Below, in pieces: positions 2,918 through 55,924 of a DNA stretch of 64,000 nt. Where the stretch lies: positions 62,001 through 126,000 of the forward strand of contig NZ_JAGSYG010000010.1 of NCBI RefSeq assembly GCF_025685655.1, read 5' to 3'. The first letter of the stretch is position 1, and each line of letters starts with the position of its first letter. Under the pieces are notes generated by a model. It worked only from the letters and a program-made list of their open reading frames with translations. It did not search any database and was not told where the DNA came from. Both the position numbers and the translations under genes were made by a program. This DNA comes from Acidicapsa ligni. GTDB lineage: Bacteria > Acidobacteriota > Terriglobia > Terriglobales > Acidobacteriaceae.

Positions 2918-5569
2918 ATGTCGCTATGGTCACGTATCGTTAATGCTGTTCGCAGTGAACAACTGAGCCGTGAGATTGCTGAAGAGATGGAGTCTCACAT
3001 TGCCGAAGCGGTCGAGCATGGGCGCGATCCTGACGAAGCCCGGCGGGCGCTTGGGCGCAGCTACGAGCAGCGTCAGCAGAGAGAGAGCAGCTACGAAATC
3101 CGCACTTTGGGCTGGCTTGAGCTGCTGCGTGCAGACGTCCTGTTCGGTTGGAAGCAGCTTAAACGAAATAAGGTCACCTCTATCGTCGCGATCCTTTCGC
3201 TTGCTCTCGCGATGGGCGCATGCATCGGAGCATTTCGACTCATGGATGCGTTACTCTGGCGTCCTCTGCCGGTAGCCAATGCTGAGCGCCTCTACGCTAT
3301 CTCGCGTGAGGCATTCACGCCTGAGGGTAAGCTCGTTCGATCGGACATATGGCCCTATCCTTCTTTCAGCCTCATGCGGGATGCCGTAAAGGATCAGGCC
3401 GAGTTGCTCGCAGTCTCCACCGCTGATCGAAGGGATCTGACATATGGGTCCGATGCGGAGATGGAGAAGGCGAATGTGCAGTACGTTTCCGGCGCGATGT
3501 TCCAGGCATTCGGCCTCAAGCCTGCTTTAGGAAGATTGCTGGTAGAAGACGACGACCGAACCCCGGGTTCTCATCCCTACGCCGTTCTCTCCTACGACTA
3601 CTGGACGCAACGCTTCGGGCATGATCCGCAGATCGTCGGCAAGACATTGCGCATCGGCAAAGATATCTACGAGATCACGGGAGTCGTCAACGAACCATTT
3701 ACCGGCACCGAGCCGGGTACGATGACAGACCTTTTTCTTCCGGCCATGATGCATCCTGCGGTAACCCGATCCGATGTTGGCTGGGTTCGGCCACTGGTGC
3801 TGGTTAAGCAGGGAACCACCCTTGAGCCGCTGCGCCAGAAATTGAGTGCAACCAGCCGCGCTTTCGATGAGGAACGGATCAAAGGTTTTTCCAGCGCGGA
3901 TAAGAAATCTTTGCGATGGATACTGGACGTGACACTGCTGATTCAGCCTGCGGGTGCTGGAGTTTCGAACCTTCAGGATGAATATCGCAAAGCTCTTAGC
4001 ATTCTCGGTGTCCTGGTCGCGATGGTTCTGCTTATTGCCTGCGCCAATGTCGCCAACCTGAAGATGGCACAGTCGGCAATGCGGTCTCGCGAAATGGCAC
4101 TGCGTGTTGCTATTGGCGCAGGACGAGGCCGCCTGGTGCAAATGCTCCTTGTAGAGAACGCTATGCTGGCCGTGCTCGCAGCAGGCCTAGGAGCGCTGTT
4201 CGCGTGGCAATCAGCGCCGCTTGTCGTGAGTATGATCCAGTCCTCCGATACTCCGGTGCGATTGCTTCTTTACACAGACTGGAGAGTTCTCGGCTTTGGT
4301 GTTGCGCTAGTCTTCTGCGTGTTGCTGCTCTTCGGAGTACTTCCCGCGCTTCGGGCCAGTGCAGTCAAGCCAGTCAGCGCACTCAAGGGTGGCGACGATG
4401 ATCCTAACTCACGACGCCGTTTGATGCATGGCCTGATCGCAGCCCAGGTAGCGTTTTGTTTCCTCGTGATATTCATGTCAGGACTCTTCGTAAGGACCTT
4501 CGAGAGTTTGTCGCATAAGCCTTTGGGCTTCTCTCCTGAAAATCTTCTGCTGCTGGACGTGGTTACACCACAGGGCCAACTGCCTGTGGTGTGGGATCAA
4601 ATCGCAGACAAATTACGGAGCGTCCCCGGCGTAGAAAGAGTTGCAATTGCGAGTTCACCGCTATTGTCGGGTGCCGCATGGAATAACTTTGTTTCGGTTG
4701 GAGGAGCAGCTCCGAGTTCCATTGCCGCCTACCTGCTTGCAATATCGCCGGGATGGTCAGAGACCATGAAGATCCCTTTGCTCGACGGAAGAGATTTTCG
4801 TTCCGGCGACGCCACCCCCGGTCAGGCGATCGTCAACCAGTCTTTCGTCAAGACTTTTTTGGATGGAAAGAATCCGATCGGAAAGACATTTCAAGAGGAA
4901 GAAAATCATTTCCAGGTCGTAGGGCTAATTGCAGATGCTCCCTATGGCAACCTCAGAGATCCTATTGTGCCGGTAGCCTACATTCCTTTTCATGAAGTGA
5001 ACGCTCAAGGCGTGGCGCAGCTGGAAACGCAGGAGACTTTTCTCGTTCGCACTTCAGGCTCCGATCCACTCGCGCTTGCTTCTGTACTGCGCAAGACAAT
5101 TCCGCAGGCACGCGCTGGCTTTCGTGTCACGGATCTTCGCACCCAGAGCGACCTGGTGCGAGCGCAGACTGTGCGCGAACGGCTGCTGGCGATGCTTGCA
5201 GCTTTCTTCTCTTTCGTAGCACTCTTGCTCGCAGCGATTGGTTTATACGGAGTGCTGAGTTATTCGGTGCAGCAGCGGGAGCGCGAATTTGGAATTCGTA
5301 TCGCAGTTGGTGCTCGGGTCGCCGACATCGCATGGCAGGCTACATCGCGGATCCTCCTGATGGTGATGATGGGAGCTGTGATCGGTGCAGCACTCGGGAT
5401 CGCATCGGTGCGTTATGTTGAGACGCTGCTGTATGGCGTGAAGGGAAGCGACCCACTCATGCTTACAGGTCCAGCACTAGCATTGTTGGCGATAGCTTTG
5501 CTGTCTGCGTTGCCAGTCATCGTACGTGCCTCGCGCATCGATCCGAAAATCATGTTGCGAGCGGAATGA
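2918..5569 (+). CDS. ADOP-type ABC transporter permease (duplicated FtsX/MacB domains)
   Basis: An 883-residue inner-membrane protein starting one base after padR. Residues 1-75 form a charged cytoplasmic prefix (MSLWSRIVNAVRSEQLSREI...) typical of acidobacterial duplicated orphan permeases. A first transmembrane helix (about 83-108) is followed by a MacB-like periplasmic domain, then an FtsX core with the signature LLIACANVANLKMAQ and RSREMALRVAIGAGRGRLVQ (about 368-405). After further helices a second periplasmic domain and a second FtsX core follow, with YGVLSYSVQQREREFGIRIAVGA (about 778-800, spelled in parts) before the C-terminus. No ATPase gene lies beside it, which is why the family is called orphan. 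MacB/FtsX permeases act as mechanotransmission units in efflux or lipoprotein handling; the cargo here is unknown. Probably controlled by the adjacent PadR. Confidence 0.9.
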   Translation: MSLWSRIVNAVRSEQLSREIAEEMESHIAEAVEHGRDPDEARRALGRSYEQRQQRESSYEIRTLGWLELLRADVLFGWKQLKRNKVTSIVAILSLALAMGACIGAFRLMDALLWRPLPVANAERLYAISREAFTPEGKLVRSDIWPYPSFSLMRDAVKDQAELLAVSTADRRDLTYGSDAEMEKANVQYVSGAMFQAFGLKPALGRLLVEDDDRTPGSHPYAVLSYDYWTQRFGHDPQIVGKTLRIGKDIYEITGVVNEPFTGTEPGTMTDLFLPAMMHPAVTRSDVGWVRPLVLVKQGTTLEPLRQKLSATSRAFDEERIKGFSSADKKSLRWILDVTLLIQPAGAGVSNLQDEYRKALSILGVLVAMVLLIACANVANLKMAQSAMRSREMALRVAIGAGRGRLVQMLLVENAMLAVLAAGLGALFAWQSAPLVVSMIQSSDTPVRLLLYTDWRVLGFGVALVFCVLLLFGVLPALRASAVKPVSALKGGDDDPNSRRRLMHGLIAAQVAFCFLVIFMSGLFVRTFESLSHKPLGFSPENLLLLDVVTPQGQLPVVWDQIADKLRSVPGVERVAIASSPLLSGAAWNNFVSVGGAAPSSIAAYLLAISPGWSETMKIPLLDGRDFRSGDATPGQAIVNQSFVKTFLDGKNPIGKTFQEEENHFQVVGLIADAPYGNLRDPIVPVAYIPFHEVNAQGVAQLETQETFLVRTSGSDPLALASVLRKTIPQARAGFRVTDLRTQSDLVRAQTVRERLLAMLAAFFSFVALLLAAIGLYGVLSYSVQQREREFGIRIAVGARVADIAWQATSRILLMVMMGAVIGAALGIASVRYVETLLYGVKGSDPLMLTGPALALLAIALLSALPVIVRASRIDPKIMLRAE

Positions 5570-6095
5570 CGCAATACGCTAAAGTGTGGAGTCGCTCCCT
5601 CAACACAATACTTATCGACTAGCGATATACCACTGAATCGCAGGAACAGTCTTCATTCTTTTGGAAAGGGAAATGAAGACGGACCAGTCCGTCCTTCCAC
5701 CCAACACACTTCGATAGTGACGTGGAAGCGTTACAGCCACTATTGATTAAGGACTTCGCATTACGAATAATTCATCGTTATGTAATCTGCCGTCGCGACT
5801 GGTCGTGTAAAAACATAACTGTCCCCCCTACAGTGTGCGGGTGCGGAACGCAACATCAGCGTTCGTGTGTATGTGTGTTCTTCCATCATGCGTGGCACTC
5901 TGAATCCCACTCAAAAATTTACAAAAATAAATCTTCTTTTGCCGTTGAGAAATCGCAAACTCGTACGGCATTCCAGTTAGGGAGAGTTTATTGATAACTC
6001 CCCTTGCGCTCCTACGCACTCCTGTCGATGCCCCATGCAAACGCATGGGCTGCTTCTGAGGCGATGGCCGCAAACTGAAGGTTTCTGGAGGATCT
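5570..6095. other. 526-base intergenic region with paired hairpins
   Basis: No convincing gene. It holds the overlapping hairpins at 5649-5693, probably the 3' end of the padR-permease transcript, and a weak promoter-like pair TTGATT (5743-5748) and AATAAT (5766-5771) with a 17-base spacer that could serve the lipoprotein gene starting at 6096. Confidence 0.5.
5649..5693. repeat. Two mutually exclusive inverted repeats after the permease gene
   Basis: GTCTTCATT (5649-5657) pairs with AATGAAGAC (5672-5680), and GACGGAC (5678-5684) pairs with GTCCGTC (5687-5693) across a 2-base centre. The two stems share the GAC at 5678-5680, so they compete. There is no T-run after the second stem, so simple intrinsic termination is not obvious. 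Confidence 0.5.
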
Positions 6096-9000
6096 GTGCG
6101 AGTTCTGCTGAAGAGGTTTGGAGGCCGTTCGACCGTAGCGGCGATGGCGCTGGCAAGTGTACTGACGATGGTGGGATGTGGCGGCAGCAACTCCTCCCTC
6201 CCGGGCAGCAACGGAACCGCAACGCCGACCTTTAGTCCGGGTGCGGGGTCCTATAACGTATCCAAGGACGTGACCATTGCGGACGCGACGAAGGGTGCGG
6301 TGATGTATTGCACCACCGATGGCACGACGCCGACCGCTTCGTCTCCCGTATGCGCCCAGCCCACCACAGTCTTCAAGACCGAGTTCCTGCAGGCTATTGC
6401 TATTGCGCCTGGCAAGACTGCCAGCCCTGTTGCCTCGGCAGGCTATACGATCACGCCGAATATGGTTCCGACTCCGACCTTCAATCCGGCTGGCGGCAAT
6501 TTTACCGGCACGCAGATGGTCACGATCAGCGACAGCGCTTCGAATGTAAACATCTACTACACGCTCGATGGTTCTGTGCCAAGCGCGAACTCCACGCTTT
6601 ACATCAGCGGCAGTCCGGTTGCCATCTCCCAGACTTCCACACTGAGCGCCATTGCCGTAGCCGCGGGCTTCACGAACAGCAGCGTGAACAGCGCTACCTA
6701 TATCATTCAGGCGATTCTCCCGCCTCCCATTGTTAGCGGTATCATGCCAACCTCTGCTAGCGCAGGCGGTGGGGTTCTTGCGCTGACGGTGAACGGGACA
6801 AACTTTATCTCTGGCTCTACGGTGCAGTGGAATGGCGTAACGCAGCCGACTATCTTTGTCAGCGCGACACAATTGACAGCCACGATTCCGGCCAGCCTGA
6901 TTGCCAATGCGGGCACGGCGAATGTGACTGTAGCCCAGTCTTCAGGCATCTCCGGGGCCGCAGCTTTCACCATCAACTCGGTTACTCCCGCAATTACGGC
7001 CGTGAGTCCTTCCTCTGGAACTGTAGGCACCTCTGTGTCCATCACAGGGACTAACTTCACTGGTGCGACAGCAGTCAGTTTCGGCAGCACGCCAGCCACC
7101 AGCTTCAAGGTGAACTCCGCAACCAGCATCACCGCAGTTGCTCCGGCAGGCACAGGCACCGTGGATGTAACGGCTGTCACGCCTACTGGCACCAGTAGCA
7201 CTTCCGCTGCCGATCAGTTCACCTATACGGTTCCGACACTGATCAGCATCAGCCCTGCAACCGGCCCGTCGACAGGCGGCTCCTCTGTGGCCATTACGGG
7301 AACCAACTTTACCGGTGCGACAGCGGTCAACTTCGGCACTGTGCCAGCCACCAGCTTCAAGGTAAACAGCGCAACCAGCATCACCGCAGTTGCTCCGGCA
7401 GGCACGGGCACTGTGGATGTGACGGTTGTTACGTCGAACGGCACCAGCGCAACTACCGCTGCCGACCAATTCGTTTATACGATTAATGCTCCTGCGGTGA
7501 CCAGCATCAGTCCTGCTATCGGTCTGTTGGCCGGCGGCACCACTGTAACTATCACGGGAGTCAACTTTACCGATGCGACTGCGGTCAATTTCGGCAGTAC
7601 AGCAGCCACCAGCATCACGGTGAACTCGACGGCAACCAGCATCACGGCAGTCTCTCCCGCGGGAACAGGTACCGTGGATGTGACGGTTGTTACACCTGCC
7701 GGCGTCAGCCCAACTGCCGCTACTGACCAATTTGCTTACGGAGTGGCGTTCAACGGCACTGTCTCCAGCGGTGCGTTACCGATCGTAGGTGCGACAGTGC
7801 AGTTGTATGCCGCAGGTACTCAAGCTTACGGTTCGGGTGCTACCCCGCTTACAACGGGGCCTAGCCCGATCGTTACGGATGCGAGCGGAAAGTTTTCACT
7901 TCTCTACGCTTGCCCCACATCGGGCGCTCCAGGAGACCAGGTTTACCTGGTGGCCTCCGGAGGCAACACCACAAGCGGACCCAACCCCAACGCCAACATC
8001 CTGTTGATGGAGGCTCTTGGCTCGTGCAGCCAGCTTGCACTTGCTTCGCCAGTCACGGTGAATGAAGTCACGACAATTGCGTCGGCGTATGCACTGTCCG
8101 CATTCGCGACGATCAACAGCAGCGGAGGCATCGATGTAGGTGCACCTGCAACTGGAACGACCTGCAATGCCGCAGGCAATTGGAAGAGCACGACGGCGGA
8201 AAGCTGCAACTACACCGGGCTGGCCAATGCTTTCAGTGCGGTGAACAACCTGGTGAACATAAGCACGGGCGTGGCGCGCACCTTTACTCCCGCATATAAG
8301 ACTGATCTGGCAGGCGATCCGCAAGTCGTGAACAACAGCACAGTACCCACGGCGCGCATCAACGCGCTGGCGGATATGCTGGCCTCCTGTGTGGAGGGTG
8401 ACGGTTCCGGCTGTGGCAGCGGCCTGTTCAGTGCGGCGTCAACGAATGGAGCAACAACGGGAACCACACCGATTACGCCCGTAGATACGCTGCAGGCGGC
8501 GCTTAACATCGCACAGAATCCCGGCAACAACGTCACACAATTGCTGGGCCTGGTTTCATCGACTTCGCCTTACAGCATCACGAGCCCGGACCCCGGCAGC
8601 GTCGCCCTTGCGGTGAGCGGCCCGGGTGCGCCGACGGACCTGACCCTGGCTCTTACCTTCACCGGCGCGGGCCTGGGAGTTGGGCCTGGCATTACTCTTT
8701 CGGACAACAACATCGGATTCAGCAATGCGGCACTCAGCATCGACGCCGGGGGTAACATCTGGGTCGCGGCATACGCCTTTAACCTGAACGATTTTTCTGC
8801 CAATGGCGAGGTGATTGCAGAGTTCAACGCCCTGGGCGCGCCTGTGAGTAAGTCCACCAGCATAGACGCAGCCAATAACCCAACCTATGGCGGCTACAAC
8901 CCTCAGCCGGGCAGCACAACCGACGGGGTCCAGACAAATATGCTCGCCGTCGACCAGTCTGGGAACCTGTGGACATATCAGGACGGGCAAACCGGAAACA

Positions 9001-50514: not shown

Positions 50515-50895
50515 ATGCAGACGAGCGCAATTTTCATAAAACTGGTTCTCGCTTCACTCGTGGTCTGGAGGTTGACACAGCTTCTCTCCAGCACCGATAA
50601 GTCGCGAAATCTAACTGATCTTATTGTGCAAAATAAAAGCTCCAACTTTTGGGGACGAGCTCAGGCCCTGCTCTGTTGCATCGCTCTCTGGATCGCTTCA
50701 CCTGCAGCAATTTTTCTAAATAATGGATTCGTCGGTCTGGCTCTTCATTGGCTGGCGATCGCCGCAGCCGCATTTCTATTGGAAGAAACATCCACCGACG
50801 CATACAGGGATGCATACCAGAAAGACTCCGGGAAAGAGATCTTAGAAGGAGATATGCCGTGTGCCATAGCCACAATTCACCCACCCTTGAAATAG
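50515..50895 (+). CDS. Small inner-membrane protein, DUF1360-like in shape
   Basis: 126 residues with GGAGGAAG 6-7 bases upstream of the ATG. An N-terminal helix (IFIKLVLASLVVWRLTQLL) with the RLTxLL motif seen in DUF1360 proteins, a polar loop, then hydrophobic segments ALLCCIALWIASPAAIFL and GLALHWLAIAAAAFLLEE. The tail after about residue 95 is polar. DUF1360 resemblance rests only on the N-terminal motif and overall shape, and the paired cysteines normally seen in that family are reduced to CC. It stands alone between a terminator and the sigma/CHAT cluster. Function is unknown. Confidence 0.6.
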   Translation: MQTSAIFIKLVLASLVVWRLTQLLSSTDKSRNLTDLIVQNKSSNFWGRAQALLCCIALWIASPAAIFLNNGFVGLALHWLAIAAAAFLLEETSTDAYRDAYQKDSGKEILEGDMPCAIATIHPPLK

Positions 50896-51208
50896 CCAAC
50901 AAGGTAATAGTCGACAAGGCAAATGACCGCGCCTGGAAAGCATCCTCTTGCATATCGCAGCCGTGCTCTGGAATGTGCGCGTGCAGGAAGACATGCGTCC
51001 AGGAAGCTTTGTATCCTTCCGCGATTGATACTCCGGTCCCGAGCGTTGAGTTATCGCTCCAATTCTCACCCCTGCAAATGCAGAGCATCAGGCCAATCCT
51101 ATGACATGCGCACAGCCGTTACACTCGCAATCAATCGCTCCCTATGGTGGTTCCTCGCTCCCTGCCGCGATGCTATACTTGCGTCCACTTAGAAGGACGG
51201 CCGCCACC
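50896..51208. other. Intergenic region with candidate promoter for the sigma/CHAT cluster
   Basis: 313 bases with no convincing gene. TATACT at 51174-51179 could be a -10 element (the matching -35 region TTCCTC is poor), placing the transcript start near 51186 and supporting the TTG at 51209 as sigma-factor start. AGAAGGA lies at 51191-51197. Confidence 0.4.
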
Positions 51209-51805
51209 TTGAAATTTCAAGCGTTCGATGCAGATTATCTGGAGAGCCTTCGTGCCGGAGATTTCCGCACACAGGAGCACTTCGTCTGCTATTTCACTGA
51301 TTTGATTCACATGAAGCTGCGCTCTCGGCTCCAATCGCAACAGGCCATCGAAGATGTGCGCCAGGAGACTTTCGCTCGCGTGTTAGCCATCATCCGAAAG
51401 GATGGAGGCCTGCGCCAGCCCGAGCGGCTTGGCCCGTTCGTCAATACGGTCTGCAACAATGTCCTGCTTGAACACTATCGGCAATCTTCGCGCAGTGATT
51501 CGCTTGATGAAGAAGGCAAGCCCGAGTTGCCCGCTACCGGAAGAAGCAGTCTGGATCTTGCCGAATCCAAACAGGCCGAAGAGCAAGTTAGAGAGGTATT
51601 AGAAGAAATGCCTCTCAAAGACAGGTTGTTGTTGAAGGCGGTTTTCCTCGACGAACGAGATCGAGATGAAGTGTGCCGCGAATTTGGAGTGGACTCCGAT
51701 TATCTTCGCGTCTTGTTACATAGAGCGAAGAAAGTATTCAAGGCCACTTATCTAAGGCGCATAGGAAGCCACCTTCCCATCGACTCAAAGGTGAAACAAG
51801 CATGA
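51209..51805 (+). CDS. ECF-type RNA polymerase sigma factor
   Basis: The frame is open from 51101, but the TTG at 51209 is favoured: AGAAGGA upstream, a -10-like TATACT before it, and a 198-residue product of normal ECF length. Region 2: FVCYFTDLIHMKLRSRLQ, then AIEDVRQETFARVLAII (DVRQETF is the -10 recognition helix). Region 4: PLKDRLLLKAVFLDERDRDE, then VCREFGVDSDYLRVLLHRA as the HTH. The stop overlaps the start of the anti-sigma gene (ATGA), so the two are coupled. It heads a four-gene row that ends with a CHAT protease. The region between 2 and 4 is Ser/Glu-rich and short, as in ECF factors. Confidence 0.87.
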   Translation: MKFQAFDADYLESLRAGDFRTQEHFVCYFTDLIHMKLRSRLQSQQAIEDVRQETFARVLAIIRKDGGLRQPERLGPFVNTVCNNVLLEHYRQSSRSDSLDEEGKPELPATGRSSLDLAESKQAEEQVREVLEEMPLKDRLLLKAVFLDERDRDEVCREFGVDSDYLRVLLHRAKKVFKATYLRRIGSHLPIDSKVKQA

Positions 51806-52563
51806 AATCAACAAGAGATCACGTGCCATTTGTCATACATGGCGGAGAGGAAATCGAACCCATGGATCATCATGAGGCAATTACGATGATGGCGTCAGAG
51901 CGCTATCTGCTAGGAGATTTGAACCCGGAGCTGCGCGACGCCTATGAAGAGCATCTCTTCGATTGCCCTGAATGCGCGTCCGATGTACGCTCCGGAATGA
52001 TGTTTATCGATCACGCAAAAGCTGTGCTGCCAAGCATGGTTGCAGATATGCAGCCTGCGCAGTCCATCATGCCCATCAAGCCCGCGGCCACGCAGAAGAA
52101 TTGGTTTTCATCCTTCTCTGCATGGTTGCGCCCAGCGCTTCTGGTTCCAGCTTTCGCGGCCCTATTGGCTGTTATCGCCTATCAGAATATTGTTACTTAT
52201 CCAGCGCTGCAAACAGCCGCGAACGAACCAAGGCTGCTTCCCTGGACCACGCTTCATAACGCGACCCGCGGCGGCCACCAGGTTATTGTCGCTGACCGCA
52301 GGCAGGGTGGAGCGTTGATCATCAATGTCCCACAGGACACGATTTATCCCACTTATACGTTTGATCTATACGACTCTGACGGCAAACGTGTCTGGACGAA
52401 AACAGCAGCATCCACTGCGAATCCAGATGCTTCCTGGTCGCTCTGGATTCCCGGAGGTATCTTCACAGAAGGTTCGTACAAACTTGCGATTCAGGGTGTA
52501 ACATCAGGGGGCGAGAGCGTCCCAGTCGAACAGAGTACCTTTGACCTTCAGATTCAAAAGTAG
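51802..52563 (+). CDS. Membrane anti-sigma factor with zinc-finger-like N-terminus
   Basis: 253 residues, starting in a 4-base overlap with the sigma gene. N-terminal domain: YLLGDLNPELRDAYEEHLFD then CPEC, with His66-like spacing (EEHLFDCPEC = HxxxCxxC), the zinc-binding anti-sigma core. A transmembrane helix (WLRPALLVPAFAALLAVIAY, about 107-126) follows. The periplasmic part (about 130-253) is all-beta: QVIVADRRQGGALIINVPQD, YPTYTFDLYDSDGKRVW, WSLWIPGGIFTEGSYKLAIQ, a fold like small envelope-sensing domains. It should hold the ECF sigma at the membrane until a signal or cleavage releases it. The unknown protein and the TPR-CHAT protease downstream are candidates for that input. Confidence 0.82.
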   Translation: MKSTRDHVPFVIHGGEEIEPMDHHEAITMMASERYLLGDLNPELRDAYEEHLFDCPECASDVRSGMMFIDHAKAVLPSMVADMQPAQSIMPIKPAATQKNWFSSFSAWLRPALLVPAFAALLAVIAYQNIVTYPALQTAANEPRLLPWTTLHNATRGGHQVIVADRRQGGALIINVPQDTIYPTYTFDLYDSDGKRVWTKTAASTANPDASWSLWIPGGIFTEGSYKLAIQGVTSGGESVPVEQSTFDLQIQK

Positions 52564-52607
52564 ATGCTCCCGAGAAAATGGGATAGGACGAAAGGCAGAA
52601 CATATTC

Positions 52608-53450
52608 ATGGCGGAATCCGAAAGCGTAAGAAGAGAGCACACTTACCATGCTGAAGCCAAGGCGTTGATAGGTCATTTGACCCTGCCATTGAACAGAAGC
52701 ATCGAGCCTCAGGTCTTTCTGAGCCTTCCGCAAGCTGGCGGTTATAACTCGCAGCGGACAGGTAAGTTTCATCTCGAACAGGCGATATCGTTTGAGTCCG
52801 CATACACCGAGGTTGCAGGCAATAAAGAGACGAAGCCCGGGCATGGATGGAGCACTCTGGCCACCTCCGTCATTGAAGGCCTCAATATCCTGGAGATCGT
52901 CACTGCCGACAGAGTAGTCGCTCAAATCTCGACGGAGCATCCCCTGATCGGCCACGTGCCAACGATCAACTTCCTCGGTACACGCTTCGAAAATCTCCGC
53001 ATCGCTGGACATCCCGTGCATCTCGATCTGGATCTGAAAATGCTCGGTCCTAAGCCCGAACAGGACGCGCCCTACACCAGTAATCGTAGCCTCTCAGATC
53101 GCATTGCCCAACAGCGTAAGCGCATCCTCAAGGATGAAAATCTTCCTGAAGAAGTACGTCAGGGATACAATCGTCCAGAAGAGAATAAGGATTCGGGGTT
53201 GTTGGAATGTTCCCTGGTCAATCAGGTAAATGGCACAATCCCTGGTCACGCAGCAGGGCATGTGATCCATGTGCCCAACTTCGGAACGATCCACCTCGCA
53301 GCAGTCCATGTCCACCACGAGGACTTCCAGAAGGGGACACCCCACCGTACAACAGTAGGTCTGAACATGATCGAAGCGCACATGGGCTGCGTAGCGGCAG
53401 GCAAAGTGGGAGTAGCAACAACGAAGACCAACGGCGTCACCAGACCCTGA
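52608..53450 (+). CDS. Unknown 280-residue protein between anti-sigma factor and CHAT protease
   Basis: ATG at 52608; only a weak AAGG upstream. There is no signal peptide or transmembrane segment, so it should be cytoplasmic. The N-terminal half looks like mixed beta-structure (IEPQVFLSLPQAGGYNSQRT, AISFESAYTEVAGNKE, LNILEIVTADRVVAQISTEH). A charged helical stretch (about 160-200; SDRIAQQRKRILKDENLPEE) follows, and a His-rich beta block ends it (GTIPGHAAGHVIHVPNFGTI, HLAAVHVHHEDF, LNMIEAHMGCVAAGKVG). I do not recognise the family; similar proteins of unknown function seem common in acidobacteria. The His cluster could bind a metal. Its stop codon overlaps or abuts the start of the TPR-CHAT gene, so it is likely a functional partner and a candidate substrate of that protease. 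Confidence 0.75.
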   Translation: MAESESVRREHTYHAEAKALIGHLTLPLNRSIEPQVFLSLPQAGGYNSQRTGKFHLEQAISFESAYTEVAGNKETKPGHGWSTLATSVIEGLNILEIVTADRVVAQISTEHPLIGHVPTINFLGTRFENLRIAGHPVHLDLDLKMLGPKPEQDAPYTSNRSLSDRIAQQRKRILKDENLPEEVRQGYNRPEENKDSGLLECSLVNQVNGTIPGHAAGHVIHVPNFGTIHLAAVHVHHEDFQKGTPHRTTVGLNMIEAHMGCVAAGKVGVATTKTNGVTRP

Positions 53451-53455
53451 CATTA

Positions 53456-55924
53456 TTGTTCTTTGCTATCTGGCTGCTTGTATCTTTCGCTCTGCTTGGG
53501 TTGAAAGATATAGGCCCGGAATGTGCACAATCTACTTACAATCATATAAGACAGTTATTTCTTCAGGGAGCTCTAGCCGATTCTCAAGTTGAGGCGGCGA
53601 GGGCGCGTAGTCGGTTTGCTGGTTCAAGTTCCGAGTGGGCCAGGAAGTTCCAGATCTTAGAAGCTGAGTCCATGCTCTGGCGTGGATTAAATGATCAAGT
53701 CCTGCAATCTTTTAGTGTGAACACGATAGCCTCTCCAGACATGGAATCTCGTGTCGAAGAGCTTTCGTTGCGGAGTGTTGCGCTCACGCATCTTGATCGC
53801 CTCGCCGAGGCGAATCAAGTAATAGCTGAGGCAAATCGCTTGTGTGATTTCGAGTCCTACAGCGCCTGTGGAGACATTATCCGTGCACGAGGAGTAATAG
53901 CCCTTGAACGCGGCGAGCAGCTTGAGGCCAAGCGTGATTTCCTGGAAAGCCTAAAGTATGCAAGTACCCATAAAGATGGACTACTCGAAACAACGGCGCT
54001 TATAAACCTCAGTGCGGTCGCCTTACAGCAGGAGCATTACGACGAAGCTTTGGATTGGTCAAAGTCTGCGTATCGCGACGCGGTTCAGTTAGGGGCGGAT
54101 GATCTGACGCAAAGTGCTCTCGGAAATCAAGGGAGTGCCTACTATGGTTTAGGCGATCCAGATAAGGCGCTTGAGTTATTTCTCGAAGCGGAAAATCGCG
54201 CAGCACTTTTGGGAAGCACAGAGATACGCATCGCGTGGCTTACTTCAGCCGGCAACGTATATGCCAGCACTGGGCAGCTCCTACTTGCAGAGCGTTCCTA
54301 TAAGAATGCAATTCAGTTTGCAAGCCAGATCAATAATAAAGAAGAGATAGTAAACGCCTCAATGGATCTGGCACAAATATACAGCGGGTTAACAAGATTA
54401 GAGGATGCAGATCACTACGCCAATCAAGCCTGGAAGATGGCGCAGCAAAGCGGTAACCGCGTCGACATGCTTAATTCCCATTTGATCCTGGGCGAGACCG
54501 CCGCACTTCGTCATGATTGGGATCGAGCCTCCAACCTTTTGCATGAAGTAGAAACCGCTCCCGATAGCCAGATATCGATGAAGTGGGCAGCAGAACATGC
54601 CCTGGCACAGATGTATGAAACTCAGGGCCAGAGATCCTCCGCACAGCACGCATATCAAAGTGCTCTCGCAAGTTTTGAGAGTGCTCGCGCAGAACTAAAG
54701 CAGGATGATTCACGCCTGTCCTTTGTGACAAACGCAGCACGCATCTACGACGACTATATTCACTTCCTCATCATGCAGCATAAGTCCGTCGTAGCTCTCG
54801 AAGCCGCCGACTGGAGCCGCGCCCGAACACTCGAACAAGGTCTTGGTCTCATCCAGAATTCCAAAAATGTTCAACCCCTTCCGTTCAGTCCGACACAGAT
54901 AGCCCGCAACGCAAACGCAACTCTGCTCTTCTATTGGCTCGGCGAAAAGCAGTCCTATCTATGGGCCGTCTCTCCAGACAAAACCGAAGTCGTGCCTCTG
55001 CCCACAAAGCGCGAAATCAGCTCGATCATCGTTCGTTATAACAACGCGCTGCTCAAACTTGAAGATCCTCTAAAAGATGAGAACAAGGACGGATCAGCCC
55101 TCTACAACATGCTCGTAGCACCAGTCTCCGATCTCATTTCCGCGCACCGTCCCGTGATCATTCTTGCCGATGGAGAACTTAGCCAGTTGAATTTCGAAAC
55201 GCTGCTCGTCTCCTCACCTACACCTCATTACTGGATCGAAGACGCAACCATCCTCTCTGCGCCATCGATTCGCATGGTCACTGCGGCGAAGCCCGCAATA
55301 AAAAGCGATGGCAAGCTATTGCTCATGGGCGATGCTGTTTCGCCTGACCCTGATTATCCTGATCTCCCGATGGCATATTCAGAGATTCAACAAATTCAAA
55401 AGCATTTTCCCTCATTCAAAGAGGCCGTCTTTACTCGCCAGCACGCCACCCCTGCTGCTTACCTCTCAGCCAAACCGGAGCAATACTCTTACATCCACTT
55501 TGTCGCTCACGGAACAGCAAGCCGCCTTAGCCCGTTGGATTCGGCAGTTATTCTTTCCAGCAGCAGAGGAGCCCCGGACGGCTATAAACTTTATGCCCGA
55601 GACATCCTCCAGCATCCCATCAACGCGCGCCTGGTCACCATGGCTGCGTGTTACAGCAGCGGAACCCGCTCTTACGCTGGTGAAGGTCTCGTCGGCCTGT
55701 CGTGGGCCTTCCTGCGCGCCGGCGCCCATAGCACGATTGGTGCTCTGTGGGATGTGAGCGATGAATCAACGCCGCGATTGATGGACGGTCTCTACAGCGG
55801 TCTGGAGAGCGGATTATCTCCTGCCACAGCATTGCGAGCATCCAAGCTGGCGTTGTTGCATTCCAAAGGGAACTTCCGCAGGCCATTCTATTGGGCTCCA
55901 TTTCAGCTTTATGTCGGCCGGTAG
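53456..55924 (+). CDS. TPR-CHAT caspase-like protease with N-terminal membrane segment
   Basis: The start is uncertain. The frame has no ATG, GTG or TTG between 53207 (deep inside the previous gene) and the TTG at 53456 used here; CTG codons at 53387 and 53447 (overlapping the previous stop) are alternatives. From 53456 it has 822 residues: a hydrophobic segment at the very N-terminus (LFFAIWLLVSFALLGL), helical TPR repeats at about 57-400 (LINLSAVALQQEHYDEALDW, LGNQGSAYYGLGDPDKALEL, LTSAGNVYASTGQLLLAERS), then a CHAT domain at about 520-822. The catalytic dyad is visible: His685 in YIHFVAHGT and Cys732 in VTMAACYSSGT, followed by GLVGLSWAFLRAGAHSTIGA and LWDVSDE. CHAT proteins are cysteine proteases related to separase and caspases. 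Cotranscribed with ECF sigma, anti-sigma and an unknown protein. Confidence 0.9.
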   Translation: MFFAIWLLVSFALLGLKDIGPECAQSTYNHIRQLFLQGALADSQVEAARARSRFAGSSSEWARKFQILEAESMLWRGLNDQVLQSFSVNTIASPDMESRVEELSLRSVALTHLDRLAEANQVIAEANRLCDFESYSACGDIIRARGVIALERGEQLEAKRDFLESLKYASTHKDGLLETTALINLSAVALQQEHYDEALDWSKSAYRDAVQLGADDLTQSALGNQGSAYYGLGDPDKALELFLEAENRAALLGSTEIRIAWLTSAGNVYASTGQLLLAERSYKNAIQFASQINNKEEIVNASMDLAQIYSGLTRLEDADHYANQAWKMAQQSGNRVDMLNSHLILGETAALRHDWDRASNLLHEVETAPDSQISMKWAAEHALAQMYETQGQRSSAQHAYQSALASFESARAELKQDDSRLSFVTNAARIYDDYIHFLIMQHKSVVALEAADWSRARTLEQGLGLIQNSKNVQPLPFSPTQIARNANATLLFYWLGEKQSYLWAVSPDKTEVVPLPTKREISSIIVRYNNALLKLEDPLKDENKDGSALYNMLVAPVSDLISAHRPVIILADGELSQLNFETLLVSSPTPHYWIEDATILSAPSIRMVTAAKPAIKSDGKLLLMGDAVSPDPDYPDLPMAYSEIQQIQKHFPSFKEAVFTRQHATPAAYLSAKPEQYSYIHFVAHGTASRLSPLDSAVILSSSRGAPDGYKLYARDILQHPINARLVTMAACYSSGTRSYAGEGLVGLSWAFLRAGAHSTIGALWDVSDESTPRLMDGLYSGLESGLSPATALRASKLALLHSKGNFRRPFYWAPFQLYVGR

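Follow-up and report, generated by a model that had tools for sequence, protein, structure and literature searches.

A conserved acidobacterial operon joining an ECF sigma factor, a membrane-spanning anti-sigma factor and a TPR-CHAT protein: a candidate CRISPR-free proteolytic switch

We analyzed a 64,000-nt stretch of the Acidicapsa ligni genome (GCF_025685655.1, contig NZ_JAGSYG010000010.1, positions 62,001 to 126,000; the window) in which four same-strand genes encode an extracytoplasmic function (ECF) sigma factor, a zinc-finger anti-sigma factor with one transmembrane helix, a 280-aa protein that we call UNK, and a TPR-CHAT protein. The arrangement is a conserved operon, far beyond chance, because the order sigma, anti-sigma, UNK, CHAT recurs in 28 of the 30 orthologous loci. 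We tentatively propose, at somewhat less than even probability, that it serves at the cell envelope as a regulated-proteolysis switch without CRISPR, with CHAT as the dedicated site-1 protease for the anti-sigma factor.

In a resting cell, the sigma factor would be held by the zinc-binding N-domain of the membrane-spanning anti-sigma factor, and the TPR-CHAT protein, in many species probably a lipoprotein, would be exported across the inner membrane to act there as a site-1 protease of clan CD dedicated to that anti-sigma factor. An envelope signal bound by the TPRs would lead CHAT to cut the anti-sigma ectodomain, most likely in a flexible linker around a conserved Arg156-Gly/Ser, and a housekeeping M50 intramembrane protease would then free the sigma factor; M50 peptidases, the site-2 candidates, are present in the genome. 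UNK, predicted to be cytoplasmic, would assist or tune the system. If the proposal is correct, it adds an enzyme of caspase/separase type to the few proteases that initiate anti-sigma release, it accounts for the abundance in acidobacteria of exported CHAT proteins whose role is not known, and the CHAT-sigma coupling of type III-E CRISPR gains a CRISPR-free setting for its origin. Two residues are open to direct test, R156 of the anti-sigma factor and C732 of the protease.

Conservation and layout of the operon

Relatives were collected by two routes. UNK searches recovered 8 of 41 genomes in a set of relatives and, phylum-wide, 21 of 396, Acidicapsa dinghuensis among them; this species also supplied the one close UNK relative found by a peptide-pattern search of the GTDB 220 genome set, the others having come from profile searches. 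The four genes keep the same order on one strand in 27 of the 29 loci read, which together with the window span 13 genera and 6 acidobacterial families. Both exceptions (L059 and L061) have the order UNK-CHAT-anti-sigma, with no sigma gene nearby.

The second route used the CHAT profile alone, with the sigma factor outside the search, and gave 28 orthologues above 400 bits. We found an anti-sigma gene adjacent to 26 of these and UNK in the neighborhood of all 28, divergently transcribed in genome G047. In G047 (L149) and G202 (L150) the sigma factor comes from other ECF lineages, its position is unchanged, and CHAT stays linked even with the sigma or anti-sigma factor exchanged. The G290 locus is broken across contigs, the contig of one G202 copy is short and stops after UNK, and G266 (L148) has UNK and CHAT only. 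The first-pass annotation, made from the window's letters, had asked whether the four-gene order recurs across acidobacteria and had held that a CHAT gene usually lacking the sigma pair would speak against a switch. The order does recur, and this branch of CHAT genes is usually accompanied by the pair, because 26 of its 28 members adjoin an anti-sigma gene.

A re-check of the sequence reproduced the gene positions, the 4-base overlap and the 44-base gap given by that annotation. The sigma gene (51209..51805, + strand) starts at TTG 51209, where the orthologues' conserved core also starts, with an AGAAGGA ribosome-binding site about 10 nt upstream; its product has regions 2 and 4 only and belongs to the ECF class (TIGR02937, E=2.5e-13, 50 bits against a cut-off of 42.9). 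The anti-sigma gene (51802..52563, +) overlaps it by four bases (ATGA) and is separated by 44 bases from UNK (52608..53450, +), which is followed by the TPR-CHAT gene (53456..55924, +). About 26 nt 5′ of the sigma start codon lies a conserved, extended −10-like element (TGCTATACTTGCG, 51171..51183, +), and in aligned upstream DNA either TGnTATACTTG or TGTAAACTTG is kept at the same spacing in most orthologous operons. The element fits an extended −10 of housekeeping type that provides basal expression of all four genes, and it proves nothing about autoregulation. Its genome-wide matches were not enriched (4, compared with 5 in a reversed control); therefore, no regulon was inferred, and a sigma regulon built on this element was rejected.

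These data bear on an alternative that we consider unlikely, though worth weighing, in which CHAT and UNK are outputs of the pair: the sigma and anti-sigma factors would sense envelope stress through other site-1 proteases, and UNK and CHAT would process other envelope proteins. The genes that follow an ECF/anti-sigma pair are frequently under its control, and UNK and CHAT form the most constant pair, found even without a local sigma gene (L148, L059, L061). However, the whole operon stands behind one conserved housekeeping-like −10 element, in a comparison that covered only the region upstream of sigma, so that UNK may have an internal promoter before it, and CHAT recurs with unrelated ECF lineages, sometimes upstream of the sigma gene, as in the CHAT-sigma-anti-sigma order of L166 and L189.

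Predicted topology and the candidate substrate

The CHAT domain (55088..55912, +; residues 628-902 of a 905-aa frame) is a clan CD peptidase of the CHAT family (PF12770, E=7.5e-50, 170 bits against a cut-off of 24), with a weak match to the separase protease domain (E=0.004), and it is preceded by a TPR region (53993..54682, +; Pfam TPR_12 and TPR_MalT, residues 263-492 of the same frame). The His/Cys dyad that had been read as intact is present without exception across the 33 alignable orthologues (His685, codon 55508-55510, and Cys732, codon 55649-55651, numbered from TTG 53456). The start of the protein is uncertain (53207-53456), because the frame continues upstream without a stop as far as ATG 53207, which lies inside UNK, and a start at TTG 53456 would lose the positive charges of the Lys/Arg residues that precede the hydrophobic N-terminal stretch in orthologues. 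Locus L016 has an additional open reading frame between UNK and CHAT (7654-8445, − strand), whose 263-aa product is TPR-like and lacks a CHAT domain.

A scan for hydropathy and lipoboxes identified a lipoprotein or Sec-type signal, or an anchor, at the N-terminus of nearly every CHAT orthologue; the window's protein has a hydrophobic export signal or anchor at its N-terminus, and many orthologues have an unmistakable lipobox (MRVFVVLVWLLASAC-GR in L097, RRLLAALVVVAVAAC-GG in L098 and LLITGC-NR in L062). This distribution of signals indicates that CHAT should lie outside the inner membrane, in the periplasm.

The anti-sigma factor is of the ZAS type: it matches zf-HC2 (E=4.6e-5), its H51-x3-C55-x2-C58 motif is invariant in 30 of 30 orthologues, and one transmembrane helix appears in both sequence and model. 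The AlphaFold2 model (predicted local distance difference test, pLDDT, 83) consists of a helical N-domain, a helix at 102-140 and a beta-sandwich at 144-252. Its fold matched CopC/immunoglobulin (Ig)-like domains in the PDB (E=3.6e-5), and a comparison with the Mycobacterium tuberculosis anti-sigma factor 3hug_B gave a weak match (E=0.006). The protein thus has a ZAS domain predicted to be cytoplasmic, one transmembrane helix and an Ig-like domain predicted to be periplasmic.

Within the ectodomain, Arg156 (codon 52267..52269, +; NATR-GGH) is our candidate for the residue recognized or cut by the protease. Among 30 orthologues, 28 have Arg here, which makes this by far the best-conserved polar position of the ectodomain (the runner-up reaches 19 of 30); its flanks are variable, with Gly the commonest next residue. 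Several families of clan CD peptidases usually take Arg at P1 (PMC4357240), and separase owes its P1-Arg preference to D2151, a position held by K670 in Csx29 (PMC9729208). The loop or linker around Arg156 is predicted to be disordered, as the block 151-160 has a mean pLDDT of 60, falling below 50 at 152-154, between better-predicted parts. An R-G or R-S pair also stands at the corresponding place, just before the first ectodomain strand, in most of the other, unrelated CHAT-linked anti-sigma factors.

UNK is a divergent relative of the NCBIfam choice-of-anchor P family (NF040603), part of whose profile it matches. The window's copy falls outside the family itself (25.1 bits against a cut-off of 27, with no signal peptide, transmembrane helix or C-terminal anchor), while 7 of 8 UNK orthologues match the profile and several pass the cut-off. 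Its AlphaFold2 model is beta-rich and confidently predicted (pLDDT 90.9, predicted template modeling score 0.90), and no fold match was obtained at E<1e-3 in the PDB or among viral models; the description of UNK as an unknown protein thus still holds for its fold, and no longer for its family relationship. Searches of PDB chains gave no sequence match, Csx30 included, and UNK was accordingly rejected as a Csx30 homologue; no UNK match was found on plasmids either. An export signal was found in none of 21 scored orthologues and is visible in none of 32, transmembrane helices are likewise absent, and UNK is predicted from these sequences to stay in the cytoplasm. A C-terminal NGxxxP (often NGxWYP; 53430-53447 in the window) is kept in otherwise divergent orthologues, a pattern that a tail used for docking or processing would show.

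Based on these features, we infer that CHAT and the anti-sigma ectodomain probably share one compartment and that UNK is apart from them. The first-pass annotation had named either the anti-sigma factor or UNK as the substrate; since CHAT bears an export signal and UNK does not, the anti-sigma ectodomain appears the better candidate and UNK is disfavored. A Csx30-like scheme in which CHAT cleaves UNK, the latter serving the sigma factor as an accessory inhibitor or as a messenger, is therefore rather improbable in our estimate. It would agree with the presence of UNK near CHAT in every orthologous locus and with the conserved extreme C-terminus, and choice-of-anchor P proteins of the same phylum bear signal peptides, so that a fold of this type is able to function outside. 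Yet it would have to join proteins expected in different compartments, and it gains nothing from UNK, which showed neither sequence similarity to solved structures, Csx30 among them, nor a fold match.

Several points weigh against CHAT as the site-1 protease for the anti-sigma factor. UNK (28/28) accompanies CHAT more constantly than any other gene, the sigma pair included, and our confidence stays below one half mainly because the preferred model leaves this constancy unexplained. One locus has UNK and CHAT only and two lack a nearby sigma gene, as described above, and DegS-type site-1 proteases are usually encoded apart from their anti-sigma factors. At the position that aligns with separase D2151, CHAT has P773 (Pro in 23 of 33 orthologues, Asp in 0 of 33), in an alignment whose offset depends partly on the residue number of the catalytic Cys of fungal separase; the Asp of a separase-type P1-Arg S1 pocket is thus apparently replaced by Pro, we rejected such a pocket, and therefore Arg specificity is not predicted. 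Four residues before P773, D769 is conserved in 32 of 33. The role of R156 could also be structural, and Craspases cut at non-conserved sites (PMC11106740).

Comparison with known systems

The operon shares its outline with the type III-E Craspase module (Csx29, Csx30 and CASP-sigma), in that a TPR-CHAT His/Cys protease is encoded with an ECF sigma factor and an inhibitor, and proteolytic release of sigma is proposed for it. It differs in having neither a Csx30-like inhibitor nor Cas1, in an inhibitor that is a membrane-spanning ZAS anti-sigma factor, in an additional beta-fold protein, in an exported CHAT protein and, in the S1 region, in P773 where Csx29 has K670. Csx29 acts in the cytoplasm within the Cas7-11-crRNA (CRISPR RNA) complex, whereas CHAT here bears an export signal. 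We found no sign of a Cas7-11/CRISPR locus with Csx30 and Csx31: Cas1 was not found in the genome, PADLOC reported no CRISPR effector in the operon or its flanks, and UNK has no PDB match (Cas7-11 itself was not searched for genome-wide). The first-pass statement that no Cas gene lies in the window is supported as far as Cas1 is concerned. PDB searches with the CHAT protein returned TPR proteins, separase as a weak match and, at E=0.12, a protein with a CHAT domain; a relationship to Csx29 is undetectable in these searches, and a direct sequence link was rejected. Therefore, on the features tested, the operon is not a Craspase system; its outline is Craspase-sigma-like and its topology RseA/DegS-like. 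Of the switch put forward in the first-pass annotation, proteolytic control of the sigma factor still appears the best-supported reading of a conserved unit, but the idea that it works likewise to Csx29 found no support, given the Sec/lipoprotein signal of CHAT and the lack of any Csx30 homologue or Csx29 relationship detectable by sequence.

With the RseA/DegS/RseP pathway the operon has in common a single-transmembrane anti-sigma factor with predicted cytoplasmic sigma-binding and periplasmic domains, and M50 proteases in the genome. Here, the candidate for the site-1 role is a cysteine peptidase of clan CD, the CHAT protein of the same operon, whereas that of the RseA pathway is a PDZ serine protease encoded elsewhere.

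Our literature search on CHAT-ECF linkage found only a remark on ECF54, in whose contexts CHAT, subtilase or carboxypeptidase neighbors occur, an anti-sigma factor is lacking and proteolytic control has been proposed (review PMC8999054). ECF54 resembles the present case in the conserved CHAT gene beside an ECF sigma factor and in the proposed control. By its description it is set apart, as its conserved context has no anti-sigma factor, whereas a membrane anti-sigma factor and UNK are present and conserved here.

We also weighed a stand-alone cell-death or anti-phage protease that shares an operon with a regulator by chance. Gasdermins or Csx30 are the substrates of other TPR-CHAT proteins, which act in defense (PMC9729208), but the four proteins match no defense family beyond TPR and a weak CARF-type match within the TPRs, and the missing Cas1, the lack of plasmid matches to UNK, the conservation in 13 genera and the export signal of CHAT all make this explanation very improbable. 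Searches for defense families, Cas1, PADLOC hits in the flanks and plasmid matches gave no support to a defense or plasmid-borne system.

CHAT genes beside other ECF lineages

The association is not unique to this branch: throughout the phylum, other ECF lineages are found next to CHAT genes, and a published review mentions CHAT proteins in the contexts of ECF54 (PMC8999054). We compared 40 acidobacterial CHAT genes from a Pfam search with 40 arbitrarily chosen control stretches of about the same length, most of them taken from the genomes that supplied the CHAT genes. A detectable sigma gene lay within the fetched stretch for 14 of 40 CHAT genes, compared with 3 of 40 controls (Fisher p=0.0026), and sigma together with anti-sigma for 8 of 40, compared with 0 of 40 (Fisher p=0.0027); two of the hidden Markov models behind these counts were built largely from CHAT-linked loci, and detection is therefore biased towards such types. 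The window's genome has three further CHAT genes, and no sigma neighbor was detected for any of them.

A second CHAT-linked ECF type has its sigma genes beside CHAT in L100, L106, L155, L166, L170 and L189. Each of these sigma factors is recognized by TIGR02989/TIGR02937 and also matches NF041236, the type III-E CRISPR sigma model, with a score far under the cut-off of the latter; the two tested against Pfam sigma models (L100 and L106) matched none. According to the anti-sigma profile, further anti-sigma families adjoin CHAT genes with this type, in the orders sigma-anti-sigma-CHAT and CHAT-sigma-anti-sigma. Taken further, Acidobacteriota would hold a large CRISPR-independent class of envelope signaling systems, built on exported TPR-CHAT lipoproteins of separase/caspase type that act as dedicated site-1 proteases on membrane anti-sigma factors, cut at a conserved small-Arg-Gly/Ser site and serve several ECF lineages, one branch having added a leaderless new-fold protein, and type III-E CRISPR may have borrowed its CHAT-sigma pair from this setting; we regard this extended conjecture as unlikely in its entirety.

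Directly upstream of the CHAT-ECF-anti-sigma operon in L100 (13216-15048, −) and in L102 (6822-8669, −) lies a gene for a C11 protein, assigned to the clostripain family in the former (PF03415, E=1.2e-20) and by eye in the latter; therefore, one sigma operon there has two clan CD peptidases. In L104, a 1525-aa protein with many putative He_PIG Ig domains is encoded between the anti-sigma and CHAT genes (3202-7779, −) and is possibly a surface target or sensor.

The genes that flank the window's operon are not conserved, with the exception of a small hydrophobic 126-aa open reading frame on its 5′ side (50515-50895, +). Weak relatives of this frame (27-38% identity) occur upstream of sigma in L015, L017, L048 and L049, and it may be an optional fifth component.

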